A stretch of 64,000 nt of DNA from Allorhizobium borbori (GTDB lineage Bacteria > Pseudomonadota > Alphaproteobacteria > Rhizobiales > Rhizobiaceae): positions 84,051-148,050 of the forward strand of contig NZ_JACIDU010000013.1 of NCBI RefSeq assembly GCF_014196535.1. Reading direction: 5' to 3'. Shown one piece after another: positions 48,536 through 52,813 of the stretch. Position 1 is the first letter of the stretch. The number at the start of each line of letters is the position of its first letter. The notes beneath the pieces were generated by a model, which was not told the origin of the DNA, made no database searches, and saw only the letters and a program-made list of their open reading frames with translations. The translations under genes were made by a program, and so were the position numbers.

Positions 48536-48730
48536 GGCGCGACTATCGCATGAGGGAACGAAATTGGGACCGGCCTTTGCGGGGTAAACGGTAAATTCCC
48601 ACCGTAACCTGTGTCGGCTCGGGCATGTTTGAAGGCTGTGGCTGCATCATTTCAAGGTCTTGCCGGGCCCGCCATCCGCCCCGCGTGCCAGGTTGGCATA
48701 CTCGCTCCTGCAACCCAGAAGGAGCACTGC

Positions 48731-48994
48731 ATGAGCGATCCCTTTCTCAACACGCATCCATCGCTGACGGCCCCCGCGACCGGCGGCTTCGCCGTCACAC
48801 CCAGCGATGTCGCCGCCCTTTCCACCGTCTGCCGGGCGCTTTATGTGGGAGGCGGCGGCCATCTGGCCGTCCGGATGCTTTCCGGCGAAACACTGACGCT
48901 GCCGGATGTGCCTTCCGGCAGTCTTCTGCCGCTGCGCGTCAGCCATGTGCTGGCCACCGGCACGGCGGCGACCGGCCTCGTCGCTCTCTATTGA
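48731..48994 (+). CDS. Orphan spike-base-like protein (RCAP_rcc01079 family)
   Basis: An 87-residue protein. The segment ALYVGGGGHLAVRMLSGETL, then LPLRVSHVLATGTAATGLVALY, matches the short family annotated as spike base protein in gene transfer agents and phages. The ATG at 48731 follows AGAAGGAG. No other phage gene is nearby, so it is a stand-alone copy, a situation I believe occurs in rhizobial chromosomes. Function here is unknown; the family call is from memory of its GGGG..TGTxAT pattern. Confidence 0.65.
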   Translation: MSDPFLNTHPSLTAPATGGFAVTPSDVAALSTVCRALYVGGGGHLAVRMLSGETLTLPDVPSGSLLPLRVSHVLATGTAATGLVALY

Positions 48995-49077: not shown

Positions 49078-49350
49078 ATGTTGTCCTCAATAAGAAGGAA
49101 AACAGGGATCTTCCTCATGATATTCGTTGCAACGTTCGGAATAGGCCTTGCAGCCGGACTGACACGTTCTGTTCTGTCGGTCATTGTCGCCTGCCTCGCC
49201 ATTGTCTCCACTTTCGCCGCCGCGGTCATTCTTGGCGCGGGCGCGTCGTTTCTGGCCCTTCTCGTGGCAATCTGCGGTTATAATTTCGGCCTCGTCGCTT
49301 TTCTCGTGGCGCATTACGCCGCCGCCGCTCCGGTCGGGGAACGGGCCTGA
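49078..49350 (+). CDS. Small hydrophobic membrane protein, unknown
   Basis: A 90-residue protein dominated by three hydrophobic stretches (residues about 11-30, 32-52 and 55-80), with a basic N-terminus MLSSIRRKTG, so an inner-membrane location is likely. I recognise no family. The ATG at 49078 lacks a good ribosome site and an internal ATG at 49117 is possible. A strong hairpin at 49375-49405 ends its transcript. Confidence 0.6.
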   Translation: MLSSIRRKTGIFLMIFVATFGIGLAAGLTRSVLSVIVACLAIVSTFAAAVILGAGASFLALLVAICGYNFGLVAFLVAHYAAAAPVGERA

Positions 49351-49432: not shown

Positions 49433-51289
49433 TCAGGGGCGAACGCGGTAAAGCTTCAGGCCCGATCCCTCGACATTCGGCAAGGGCTGCAAATAGGACG
49501 GTAATTGACCGACCGTGAGCTGGGCATAGAGCCCGTCCGGCTTGAGTGCCGCAATCTCCTCGGTCTGCGGATCATTGGAGCAAAAGGCCAGGATCGAGAC
49601 ATGCGCGCCACGCAGGAAAGCTTCCGCCTCGCGCGGTGTGGCAAGGCCGATGTGAAGCTCGGTCAGCATGCCGGCCTGATTGCGGTGATACGGTGCCGTC
49701 AGCACGCGATGGCCGGAGAACCGCAGGATGGAAGCCCCGAGATTGGAGGGGGCGGCAACAACCGCTGGCGGCAGCGCGGATAAGCCAGCCAGGGCGGCCT
49801 CGCCGTTGCAGCTTGCATCGGCGGGATTCGGTGTTGCGAGGATAGGCGTGCGGAAGCGGTTCGCAATGCCGCTGATGCCTTCGACCGGCAGAGCGCCGCC
49901 GAACACCCAGACGGCGGGTACGGAGGCAAGCGTTGCCGCGAAGAAGATGAAGCCGGCAACGATGTTCTCCGGGGCGGCATTCGCCTTCTGGCGCAGTTCC
50001 GAGACGAGCAGTGACAGCGGCAGGATGGCGAGCAGATTGGCGAAGATGGCGCCGCGCACCTGAACGAGTGCCACGCCCCAGGAAACCAGTAGCAGCGCCA
50101 GCACGACGACATGGCCTTCCCGACGGTCGTCGAGGAAAATGCGTGACAGGGATACGGCGATGGCAAAAAAGCCGACCGCATAGAAACCACCGGCGGCAGC
50201 CGCTCCGGAATGAACGGTCGCCAGGAAGGACTGCGCTTCCGTAACCTTGCTCAGCCAGAGCGTGACAAGCAGAGGGTCGAGCTCGGCCAGTGGATTGCCG
50301 AGGCATTGCGGGGCAATCACGACGGCCGTGATGCCGATCAGGATGCCGCTTGTGGCCAGCACGGCAAGTCGGCGCAAGAACGTCCAGCCGCTGGCGAAAT
50401 GGGCGGAGACGAACATAAGGGCGCCGCCGAGCGCCGACAGGCCGTAAAAGCCGAAGGAGAGGTTGTCGCAGGTGACGACGGCATAGCGCGCCATCGGGAC
50501 GGTTGCGAAGAAAAGGACGGAGATGGAAAGCGCCAGCGACAGGCCGAAAGCGCTGGCGGCCTTCCTGAACGCCGGGCCGCGCGCCACCCAAAGGCCGGCG
50601 ACGACAAGGCAGACTACGGCGATCAGCGGTGTGGTTTCCGCGCCGATGGCGATGGCGAGCGCCGTCAGCAATCCGCCGACCGCGTAGTTCACCGCACCGT
50701 AGCGGCGGTCGAGAAGCACGGCGGCGAGACCGGCGGCAAGCGCGAGCTGGACGTTGTGATGGTCGATGGAGCCGGGCAGGAAGCGGTTGGAGGTGACGAG
50801 GAAAATCACGCCGAAGGCCATGGCGATGTTCATGGCCCCCGCACCACCCAATCGCCGCGCGCCGAGGCCGAGGCAGAAGATCAGGGGCGGAATGAAGGCG
50901 ATGGGCCAAACGGCAAGCGCCACGGCTTCTGCTGTCAGCCTGTCGAAGAAGAGGCCGAAGAAAAGAATGAGGCCGGCGATCGGCGCGTCGATCAGACGCG
51001 ACCAGTGCATGAGCGTGCCGCCATCGAGACCGAGACGATACTGCATCATGTCGAACCAGCCCTGTCCGGCCAGAAGATCGCGCACCTCGACAAGACGCAT
51101 GGCGTCGTCATTATCGGCGCCGACATAGTCCGCGGTGCCCGGCATGTTCAGAAACAGGATGGTGGCGATGGCGCCGATGCTGAAGACCAGAGTCATCACG
51201 GAAAGCCGGTTCCACCAGGGACGCTGCTCGTCATCCTGGCGCGGATCGGCTCGCCCCGGGCGCTCCGCCCGATGAATTGCGTTCATCAT
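49433..51289 (-). CDS. STT3/PglB-like GT-C membrane glycosyltransferase
   Basis: A 618-residue polytopic protein. After one helix (residues 30-50) the first periplasmic loop carries ADNDDAMRLVEVRDLLAGQG with acidic residues 59-62, then GTLMHWSRLIDAP (94-103). This D..D...R..L..G...G...HW.R..D spacing is like the catalytic first loop of oligosaccharyltransferases STT3/PglB/AglB. PGSIDHHNVQLAL (172-184) fits the next acidic site. About ten more helices follow, then a 120-residue soluble C-terminal domain; the WWDYG motif of classical STT3 is not seen. It is divergent from a GT2 and GtrA pair, so a polyprenyl-phosphate-sugar donor is likely. Acceptor (protein, lipid A or polysaccharide) unknown. 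Confidence 0.65.
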   Translation of the reverse strand: MMNAIHRAERPGRADPRQDDEQRPWWNRLSVMTLVFSIGAIATILFLNMPGTADYVGADNDDAMRLVEVRDLLAGQGWFDMMQYRLGLDGGTLMHWSRLIDAPIAGLILFFGLFFDRLTAEAVALAVWPIAFIPPLIFCLGLGARRLGGAGAMNIAMAFGVIFLVTSNRFLPGSIDHHNVQLALAAGLAAVLLDRRYGAVNYAVGGLLTALAIAIGAETTPLIAVVCLVVAGLWVARGPAFRKAASAFGLSLALSISVLFFATVPMARYAVVTCDNLSFGFYGLSALGGALMFVSAHFASGWTFLRRLAVLATSGILIGITAVVIAPQCLGNPLAELDPLLVTLWLSKVTEAQSFLATVHSGAAAAGGFYAVGFFAIAVSLSRIFLDDRREGHVVVLALLLVSWGVALVQVRGAIFANLLAILPLSLLVSELRQKANAAPENIVAGFIFFAATLASVPAVWVFGGALPVEGISGIANRFRTPILATPNPADASCNGEAALAGLSALPPAVVAAPSNLGASILRFSGHRVLTAPYHRNQAGMLTELHIGLATPREAEAFLRGAHVSILAFCSNDPQTEEIAALKPDGLYAQLTVGQLPSYLQPLPNVEGSGLKLYRVRP

Positions 51290-51431
51290 GTCCGCAGCGC
51301 CCTCATTTTTGGTTGTCGCCTATCCTTTTCAGGTCGTTCGCAACCTAGCTTTAACCTGTTCAAGAAATAGTAAAGGCGAGAAAAGCGGGATGAGCCCGCT
51401 ACACGATTTTCTGACATATTGGGTGGAAATC

Positions 51432-52439
51432 ATGACCGAGCCCCTGACCGCGCCGATGAACGGCGATCTTGATGTGGCGGTGCTTTTGCCTTGCTACAAT
51501 GAAGCGACGACCATTGCGGATGTGGTGCGCGGCTTTCAGGCCGCCCTGCCGCAGGCGCGCATCTATGTCTATGACAACAATTCTACCGATGGTACGGCGC
51601 TGGCGGCGATGATGGCCGGCGCGATCGTGCGCAGCGAGAAGCGGCAGGGCAAAGGCAATGTCGTGCGCCGCATGTTCGCCGATGTCGATGCCGATATCTA
51701 CGTGATGGCCGATGGCGACGGCACCTATGCGCCGGCGGATGCCAATACGCTGATTGCGGCCATGCTGGCGGACGGCGCCGACATGGCGGTTGGCACCCGC
51801 CGAGGCGTCCACGACGATGCCGGACGTCAGGGCCACGCCTTCGGCAACCGCATCTTCAACTCGCTTTACCGCCGCCTGTTCGGCAATGATTTTTCGGATA
51901 TCTTCTCGGGCTATCGCGCCTATACTCGCCGCTTCGTGAAAAGCTTCCCGGCGCTATCCAGTGGCTTTGAGACCGAAACGGAAATGTCGGTGCACGCCTC
52001 GCGGCTGAAGCTGCCGGTCGTCGAGATCGAACTGGATTACGGACGTCGGCCGGAGGGCTCGCATTCGAAGCTCTCGACCTTCGGTGACGGTTGGAAGATC
52101 CTCAAGATGTTCGCCATGCTGATGAAGGAAACGCGGCCCTTAGCGTTCTTCGGCGCATTGAGCTGGGCCGCCTTCTGCACCGCCATCGGCTTCGCGCTGC
52201 CCGTTCTCATCGAGTTCTTCGAGACCGGGCAGGTTTCGCGCATGCCAAGCTGGATCCTTTCCGTCGCGATGATTGGTCTGTCCTTCCTTGCCTTCACCGC
52301 AGGCATGATCCTCGATTCGCTGGCGCATGCCCGCTATGAGCATCTGCGGCTCGCCTATATCGCCCAGAGCGAGGCAAGCCGGGCGCGCGAAGCCGCCCGC
52401 GCCAGCCATGCCCGGCCTTCGGTAAGGGACGCAGCATGA
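51432..52439 (+). CDS. GT2 polyprenyl-phosphate glycosyltransferase
   Basis: A 335-residue family 2 glycosyltransferase. The GT-A core starts VAVLLPCYNEATTIADVVRG, with YDNNSTDGT, ADGDGTY as the DxD-type metal site and GTRRGVHDDAGRQGHAFGNR, then DIFSGYRAYTRR. Two C-terminal membrane helices (about residues 236-258 and 275-295) anchor it. This is the GtrB/dolichol-phosphate-mannose-synthase class that loads a sugar on undecaprenyl phosphate. I start at 51432 after GGTGGA; 51390 is an alternative. The stop overlaps the GtrA gene (ATGA). Confidence 0.85.
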   Translation: MTEPLTAPMNGDLDVAVLLPCYNEATTIADVVRGFQAALPQARIYVYDNNSTDGTALAAMMAGAIVRSEKRQGKGNVVRRMFADVDADIYVMADGDGTYAPADANTLIAAMLADGADMAVGTRRGVHDDAGRQGHAFGNRIFNSLYRRLFGNDFSDIFSGYRAYTRRFVKSFPALSSGFETETEMSVHASRLKLPVVEIELDYGRRPEGSHSKLSTFGDGWKILKMFAMLMKETRPLAFFGALSWAAFCTAIGFALPVLIEFFETGQVSRMPSWILSVAMIGLSFLAFTAGMILDSLAHARYEHLRLAYIAQSEASRAREAARASHARPSVRDAA

Positions 52440-52813
52440 AACGGATCGCGCTCTTCCTGATCGCCGGCGGCGGCGGTTTTCTGGTCGATGCGCTCGTCCT
52501 CTCTGCGCTCCTGCATTTCACACCGCTCGGTCCCTTCCTGTCGCGCGGCATCGCCATCGTGGCGGCGATGAGTTTTACCTTCGTCTTCAATCGCAGCTTC
52601 ACCTTCGGGCGCTCGAACCGTCGCCTTTTGTCCGAAGGCGTCCGTTACGGCGCGGTGGGGCTGGTGACGGCGCTTGTCAATTACGGGCTGTATGTGTCGT
52701 TGCTTCTGGCGATCCCGCTGCTTCAGCCGCTCGTTGCGCTCACTCTGGCCTCGCTGGCCGCCATGGGCCTCAGTTTCTTCGGCTATTCCCGCCTCGTCTT
52801 CGCCCGCCGGTGA
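52436..52813 (+). CDS. GtrA-family membrane protein (sugar-lipid flippase)
   Basis: A 125-residue protein with four hydrophobic segments. LIAGGGGFLVDALVLSALLH and FVFNRSFTFGRSNRR followed by RYGAVGLVTALVNYGLYVSL are typical of GtrA, thought to flip undecaprenyl-phosphate-linked sugar across the inner membrane. Translationally coupled to the GT2 gene. With the divergent GT-C enzyme it makes up a complete three-part donor-loading, flipping and transfer system. Confidence 0.88.
   Translation: MKRIALFLIAGGGGFLVDALVLSALLHFTPLGPFLSRGIAIVAAMSFTFVFNRSFTFGRSNRRLLSEGVRYGAVGLVTALVNYGLYVSLLLAIPLLQPLVALTLASLAAMGLSFFGYSRLVFARR

Follow-up and report, generated by a model that had tools for sequence, protein, structure and literature searches.

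What does a protein with the predicted fold and catalytic site of an oligosaccharyltransferase (OST) do beside the partners of a sugar-decorating system? The question is raised by three genes in a 64,000-nucleotide stretch of the Allorhizobium borbori genome (the window). They encode a polytopic membrane protein (termed GT-C here), a GT2 glycosyltransferase and a GtrA protein (Table 1). Oligosaccharyltransferases are recognised by the GT-C/OST fold together with a WWDYG pocket that reads N-X-S/T. The evidence tips slightly towards the trio being a three-component glycosylation system, in which a GT-C of predicted OST fold would move a single sugar onto an acceptor in the periplasm, most probably protein. 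Three-component systems and OSTs are each already known; what is new is a predicted OST-fold transferase without WWDYG inside a GtrA/GT2 module. Among the matches listed from the open-access PMC literature, no title or abstract deals with the trio.

The GT-C, GT2 and GtrA genes

The genes lie where the original prediction placed them: the open reading frame (ORF) of GT-C, a divergent GT2 with a DGD metal site, and a GtrA gene coupled to GT2 by an ATGA overlap of stop and start. The GT2 start is taken as the ATG at 51432; the mechanical ORF begins further upstream, at 51288. The host genome has one match each for GT-C and GT2 (E ≤ 1e-60) and a single PF04138 match at E ≤ 0.001.

GT2 matches PF00535 with 63 bits, and the full AglJ profile TIGR04182 with 200 bits (E 5e-59). 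This is below the curated cut-off of 325, so GT2 is not assigned as an AglJ equivalog. GtrA matches PF04138 with 69.4 bits. The components of a three-component system are thus all present, namely a predicted polyprenyl-phosphate sugar synthase of the GT2 type, a predicted small flippase and a linked GT-C. Our own GtrA profile was unreliable: it matched extra ORFs of ~121–131 amino acids (aa) in loci L012, L025, L028 and L035 that Pfam does not call GtrA (E ≤ 0.001), and it missed the GtrA proteins of L132 and L133, both found by Pfam. GtrA counts are therefore based on tblastn or Pfam.

Linkage and exchange of partners

Among 81 loci (L001 and 80 from genome contigs, L002 and L003 being identical), 79 encode GT2 and 72 GtrA by tblastn. 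Across 151 genomes of the host family, GT-C is found in 75 and GT2 in 68 (E ≤ 1e-60); 66 have both, nine GT-C only, two GT2 only and 74 neither (Fisher p = 4e-30, uncorrected for kinship). GT-C and GT2 are adjacent and divergent in every one of the 66 genomes holding both. In six of the nine GT-C-only genomes (L163–L168) a second GT2 type of 414–421 aa, GtrA and GT-C lie on one strand, and AglJ is the top NCBIfam match (134–142 bits) of the three such GT2 proteins scanned. Pfam confirms the GtrA of these clusters in L164, L167 and L168; that of L163 is confirmed as well, and those of L165 and L166 are indicated by a weak profile hit. Genome G437 has its GT-C match at a contig start and no GT2 at E ≤ 1e-10, and G459 has one weak GT2 match away from GT-C (E 1e-21).

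All nine loci without a tblastn GtrA were inspected (L012, L025, L028, L035, L056, L060, L066, L067 and L073). An EamA-like protein follows GT2 in the six of them scanned for one (Pfam E ≤ 1e-4), being over the EamA cut-off in L025, L056, L060 and L066 and slightly under it in L067 and L073; L012 has a similar ORF at this place, seen as an ORF only. The genomes of L056, L060, L066 and L073 contain no PF04138 match at E ≤ 0.001, and that of L067 contains two, off this locus by tblastn. A methyltransferase comes after GT2 in all six loci scanned for one (L012, L025, L028, L035, L067 and L073). Among distant relatives the order is GT-C–GT2–methyltransferase–EamA in L134 and GT-C–GT2–EamA in L131, while L132 and L133 hold two consecutive GT-Cs together with GtrA and a ~530-aa protein, which Pfam identifies in L132 as an FAD oxidoreductase. 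At these loci, then, GT-C retains a lipid-sugar synthase, a small flippase or both while the partners swap, and nothing speaks more strongly for the module than this exchange. As a separate matter, the methyltransferase and/or EamA-like protein behind GT2 in the nine loci raises the possibility of methylation before flipping.

In the class, a GT-C relative is present in 45/387 genomes and GT2 in 82/387. Among plasmids, 4 of 72,556 records have a relative (E ≤ 1e-5).

Active-site residues of GT-C

Conservation was read from a close alignment of 61 rows (window protein included, down to 40% identity) and a diverse alignment of 33 rows (reaching 18% identity). The residues singled out by the original prediction, acidic 59–62 (D-N-D-D), H95-W96-S97-R98 with D101, and S-I-D-H-H-N (174–179), read as claimed and are conserved in relatives. 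Invariant in the close alignment are D59, D61, D62, H95, W96, S97, R98, D101, D176, H177 and N179; in the diverse alignment D61, H177, H178, E218, E351, R412, C494 and C570 are invariant. The first-loop motif is well kept in the diverse alignment (H95 and R98 each 30/33, W96 and D101 each 31/33), as is D176 (31/33), and H178 is found in 55/61 rows of the close one. C494 and C570, in the C-terminal domain, are present in 61/61 and 33/33 rows and could form a periplasmic disulfide.

The metal ligands of AglB are Asp47 together with Asp161 and His163 of an Asp-His-His sequence, assisted by Glu360 of TIXE (PMC8342417); the roles of the first catalytic Asp (AglB D47, PglB D56) are described in PMC8342417 and PMC7226087. 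The PglB site comprises D56, R147, D154, D156, E319 and R375, the last being the Arg of external loop (EL) 6 (PMC6801728). In profile alignments with STT3 proteins (next section), the partners of D61, R169, D176 and H178 of GT-C are D, R, D and D in 16/16 runs. E351 pairs with Glu and R412 with Arg in 12/16 (8/8 global and 4/8 local), the remaining four local alignments ending earlier. The predicted OST catalytic set (EL1 Asp, second DXD, EL5 Glu and EL6 Arg) is thus recovered in every run that reaches these positions. Taken with the AglB site data, the pairing predicts that D176-H177-H178 is equivalent to the second motif of AglB.

The Ser/Thr-binding pocket of OST is formed by WWDYG and DK/MI (PMC8342417). 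GT-C has PSNLG in place of WWDYG, with N516 paired with Asp and G518 with Gly of WWDxG in 12/16 STT3 runs. Position 516 in the close alignment is N in 27, D in 22 and E in 9 of 61 rows. The absence of WWDYG from GT-C, already pointed out in the original prediction, extends to its relatives: WWD.G or LWD.G occurs in 0/90 distinct family sequences, and two carry WWD minus the G. Since both tryptophans are gone, the acceptor motif should differ from N-X-S/T. In APYHRN, which from its position probably lies near the DGGK/DNNT lipid-donor motif of OST, Y534, H535 and R536 are each conserved in 61/61 rows of the close alignment, and in 32/33, 29/33 and 27/33 of the diverse one.

Comparison with STT3 and PMT_2 proteins

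The observation goes beyond chance: 2267 proteins match GT-C at E ≤ 1e-3 (7996 candidates scored). GT-C has no Pfam or NCBIfam match at E ≤ 1, those of STT3 (PF02516) and PMT_2 (PF13231/PF02366) included, and by sequence nothing in the PDB matches it at E ≤ 10. PF02516 is not matched anywhere in the host genome at E ≤ 1, nor in 10 distant relatives at E ≤ 0.5; neither it nor PMT_2 is among the 21 families listed for the 61 relatives. Two GT-C relatives among the matches listed bear the UniRef label 'oligosaccharyl transferase-like'.

Nine Pseudomonadota proteins (9/398 genomes) pass the PF02516 cut-off. Eight were aligned, of which five carry WWDxG and the other three LWDAG; L144 (longest membrane ORF 513 aa, without WWDxG) was omitted by choice. 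A homology search with one member (31 hits) enlarged the set to 38 sequences. The diverse alignment or all 90 distinct GT-C sequences were compared with the STT3 sets (16 runs) and with 15 PMT_2 proteins in 24 hhalign comparisons. The local E values of the 38-sequence STT3 set lie between 8.5e-10 and 1.8e-8, those of the eight-sequence set between 8.5e-6 and 3e-5, and those of PMT_2 between 4e-6 and 2e-5. Global values are 5e-16 to 6e-13 for the 38 STT3 sequences, compared with 1.8e-9 to 1.5e-8 for PMT_2. Depending on the column rule, the match of the diverse alignment to the eight STT3 sequences spans 399 columns (E 8.5e-6) or 133 (E 1.2e-5), and its match to PMT_2 spans 191 (E 4e-6) or 166 (E 6e-6). 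PMT_2 compared directly with STT3 gives E 1.2e-6 to 3.6e-7, and reversed-alignment controls, run with the eight-sequence STT3 set, give 0.005–0.036. In the PMT_2 runs D61 alone pairs with one constant residue throughout.

From its model, GT-C is predicted to have the OST fold, with a membrane part of the GT-C class and an OST-type C-terminal domain. ArnT is not its closest fold, and AglB is closer than DPY19 in Z. With the catalytic residues pairing with STT3, the model supports the proposal that GT-C is nearer to the oligosaccharyltransferases than to ArnT. No row named GtrS appears in the fold lists shown, an absence that says nothing.

Table 1. Features of the locus. Positions are those of the window; fractions are rows of the close (n/61) and diverse (n/33) alignments.
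Feature	Position	Strand	Evidence
GT-C, predicted OST-fold sugar transferase, 618 aa	49433-51289	-	ORF, conservation in relatives, profile alignment
D61, paired with first catalytic Asp of STT3 (AglB D47, PglB D56)	51107-51109	-	61/61, 33/33
H95-W96-S97-R98..D101, first-loop motif	50987-51007	-	invariant in close alignment
R169-x6-D176-H177-H178-N179, predicted equivalent of OST second DXD (AglB Asp-His-His)	50753-50785	-	profile pairing
E351, predicted equivalent of TIXE/SVSE Glu (AglB E360, PglB E319)	50237-50239	-	61/61, 33/33
R412, predicted equivalent of EL6 Arg (PglB R375)	50054-50056	-	61/61, 33/33
C-terminal soluble domain, residues 485-618, predicted reduced OST C-terminal domain	49433-49837	-	
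PSNLG (residues 514-518) in place of WWDYG	49736-49750	-	profile pairing
APYHRN, residues 532-537, conserved motif	49679-49696	-	conservation in both alignments
Intergenic region, divergent GT-C/GT2	51290-51431		divergence kept in 66/66 adjacent pairs
GT2, predicted AglJ-like polyprenyl-phosphate sugar synthase, 335 aa	51432-52439	+	PF00535, TIGR04182
D-G-D codons of GT2	51711-51719		
ATGA overlap of GT2 stop with GtrA start	52436-52439		
GtrA, predicted flippase	52436-52813	+	PF04138
Small ORF between xseA and GT-C	48689-48994	+	present in 13/81 loci, own included
Small ORF between xseA and GT-C, 90-aa hydrophobic protein	49078-49350	+	present in 15/81 loci, own included

Other features of the locus and its relatives

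Neither of the two small ORFs that precede GT-C passes any Pfam cut-off. Elsewhere, touching or overlapping GT-C family genes stand in tandem at L119:8379-11962, L127:7128-11068, L132:6683-10188 and L133:8034-11548; the products of these distant relatives are perhaps heterodimers, or act in sequential transfer. Locus L117 has a generic GT2 ~1.2 kb from GT-C. Three class genomes of ~1 Mb (G229, G358 and G044) give a weak GT-C match (E 1e-4 to 1e-6), and two carry an AglJ-like GT2. In Ectorhizobium quercum two scaffolds (L002 and L003) share 17,866 bases at 100% identity, the result of an assembly duplicate or of a recent duplication.

Discussion

In the mechanism that we propose, GT2 would charge undecaprenyl phosphate with one sugar and GtrA would flip the lipid-linked sugar. 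GT-C would then move the single sugar from this lipid monophosphate donor onto an acceptor in the periplasm, most probably a protein, using a metal site of the AglB type (D61, D176 and H178, with E351 and R412). It is the partners that suggest an undecaprenyl-phosphate monosaccharide as the donor.

A number of observations weigh against this mechanism. R169 is kept in 56/61 rows of the close alignment but in only 5/33 of the diverse one. The larger STT3 set exceeds the PMT_2 set (38 compared with 15), a size bias towards STT3, and with eight STT3 sequences the PMT_2/GT83 scores equal those of STT3, the local alignment spanning only 133 columns under one column rule. When the profile is built from the 61 close relatives alone, its relation to STT3 is not significant (E 0.16). 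Proof of STT3 kinship from sequence alone was set aside; with the 38-sequence set the scores favour STT3. Linkage is also imperfect. G467 keeps GtrA beside GT-C with no GT2 at E ≤ 1e-10, and L050 and L078 have lost the GT2 of the locus, with an AglJ-like copy elsewhere (54% and 50% identical). Beyond the host family the linkage is weak. Of the 45 class genomes with a GT-C relative, 25 have GT2 (E ≤ 1e-60), adjacent in five as counted by eye. Across 20 distant regions (L115–L134) a GT2 or small flippase of the trio's type stands beside GT-C in five (L125 and L131–L134); in the other 15, whose neighbours were scanned in part, no partner was seen. No acceptor gene lies nearby, the window flanks being housekeeping genes, and the neighbours scanned in distant relatives give no clue to an acceptor either (mostly PGI, PGM/PMM, FtsH, ThiC, IF-2B, pantoate ligase and D-Ala carboxypeptidase). 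An OST-like fold by itself is no proof of a protein acceptor.

The same donor chemistry could instead serve an envelope glycan (lipopolysaccharide, O-antigen, exopolysaccharide or glycolipid), as in GtrABC and ArnT, the OST fold having been recruited for glycan decoration. This is a serious alternative, though we think it the less probable of the two acceptors. A true N-linked OST, with an oligosaccharide on undecaprenyl pyrophosphate as its donor and Asn in N-X-S/T as its acceptor, would account for the predicted fold and catalytic residues, for the N, D or E at the position of the WWDYG Asp in 58/61 rows, and for the UniRef names of the two relatives. It is nevertheless improbable, given that WWDxG is missing from 90/90 distinct sequences, that PF02516 is unmatched in the host genome, that no glycan-assembly cluster is seen beside GT-C, and that the partners are a lipid-monophosphate-type GT2 plus GtrA or EamA-like proteins.

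GT-C might also be a GT83/ArnT-type transferase that scores as an OST merely through the common GT-C core. That core is shared with ArnT and Rgt (GT83, PMT_2), with profile similarity in the N-terminal third. Beyond D61, the catalytic positions pair inconsistently, and the host genome has separate PMT_2 genes; we consider this explanation very unlikely. The separate genes are a PMT_2 pair on contig C16, where L161:2142-8583 encodes an epimerase, a LAB_N + PMT_2 protein, a second PMT_2 protein and PAP2. As this pair is apart from the trio, a simple GT83/Rgt assignment was rejected. The window GT2 has no tblastn match to the C16 locus at E ≤ 0.1, and it is probably that locus, not the trio, that serves as the lipid A sugar system. 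Least credible of all is that GT-C is a membrane protein without catalytic activity or one of transport type. The Pfam, NCBIfam and PDB searches gave no characterised relative that would speak against it; yet acidic, His, Glu and Arg residues are invariant at the predicted OST catalytic positions in relatives to ~20% identity, and a predicted sugar-phospholipid synthase is the regular companion.

A three-component system acting on protein could be an instance of something wider. A general alphaproteobacterial protein glycosylation, with an AglB-like transferase minus the N-X-S/T reader, a single sugar, an AglJ-type lipid-monophosphate donor, a new kind of acceptor site on periplasmic or secreted proteins and a swap between GtrA and EamA/SMR flippases, is a tentative idea that may well not hold. 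If true, the OST superfamily would work without a sequon, as a bacterial counterpart of DPY19, and the system would be a living model for what the monophosphate-donor stage of N-glycosylation might once have been. More immediately, the fold and catalytic site predicted here are kept, and the reader dropped, throughout a large family of Alphaproteobacteria that has no Pfam model, and within the host family its GT-C is accompanied by the half of a Gtr system that makes the donor. Should proteins be glycosylated, rhizobia and their relatives would have an unrecognised glycoproteome, and GT-C would be a small new enzyme for glycoengineering. Should envelope glycans be decorated, the OST fold would have crossed into glycan decoration.

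Comparison with known systems

The pairing of GT-C with an AglJ-like GT2 recalls AglB (GT66) and AglJ. Unlike AglB, GT-C is without WWDYG and without a PF02516 match, its C-terminal domain is ~134 residues, and its partner is GtrA or a protein resembling EamA, with no multi-step glycan assembly cluster seen alongside. The DPY19 C-mannosyltransferases are marked by ExE in EL1 and Rx6LRE in EL2 (PMC6801728), whereas GT-C has D-N-D-D and Rx6DHH at these places and thus does not carry the DPY19 motifs. Durairaj et al. 2023 (PMC10584680) report a GT-C family, 'component 27', that is likewise bacterial, undescribed and STT3/PglB-like in fold, with a median length of ~665 aa similar to that of GT-C, but is annotated as YfhO-like. 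Lastly, a lipid-charging GT2, a small flippase and a GT-C are common to the trio and to the three-component Gtr systems, as described for Shigella, Salmonella and the Citrobacter pentofuranose system (PMC11127046). The trio differs from these in its divergent GT-C with a predicted OST fold and C-terminal domain, and in its AglJ-like GT2.

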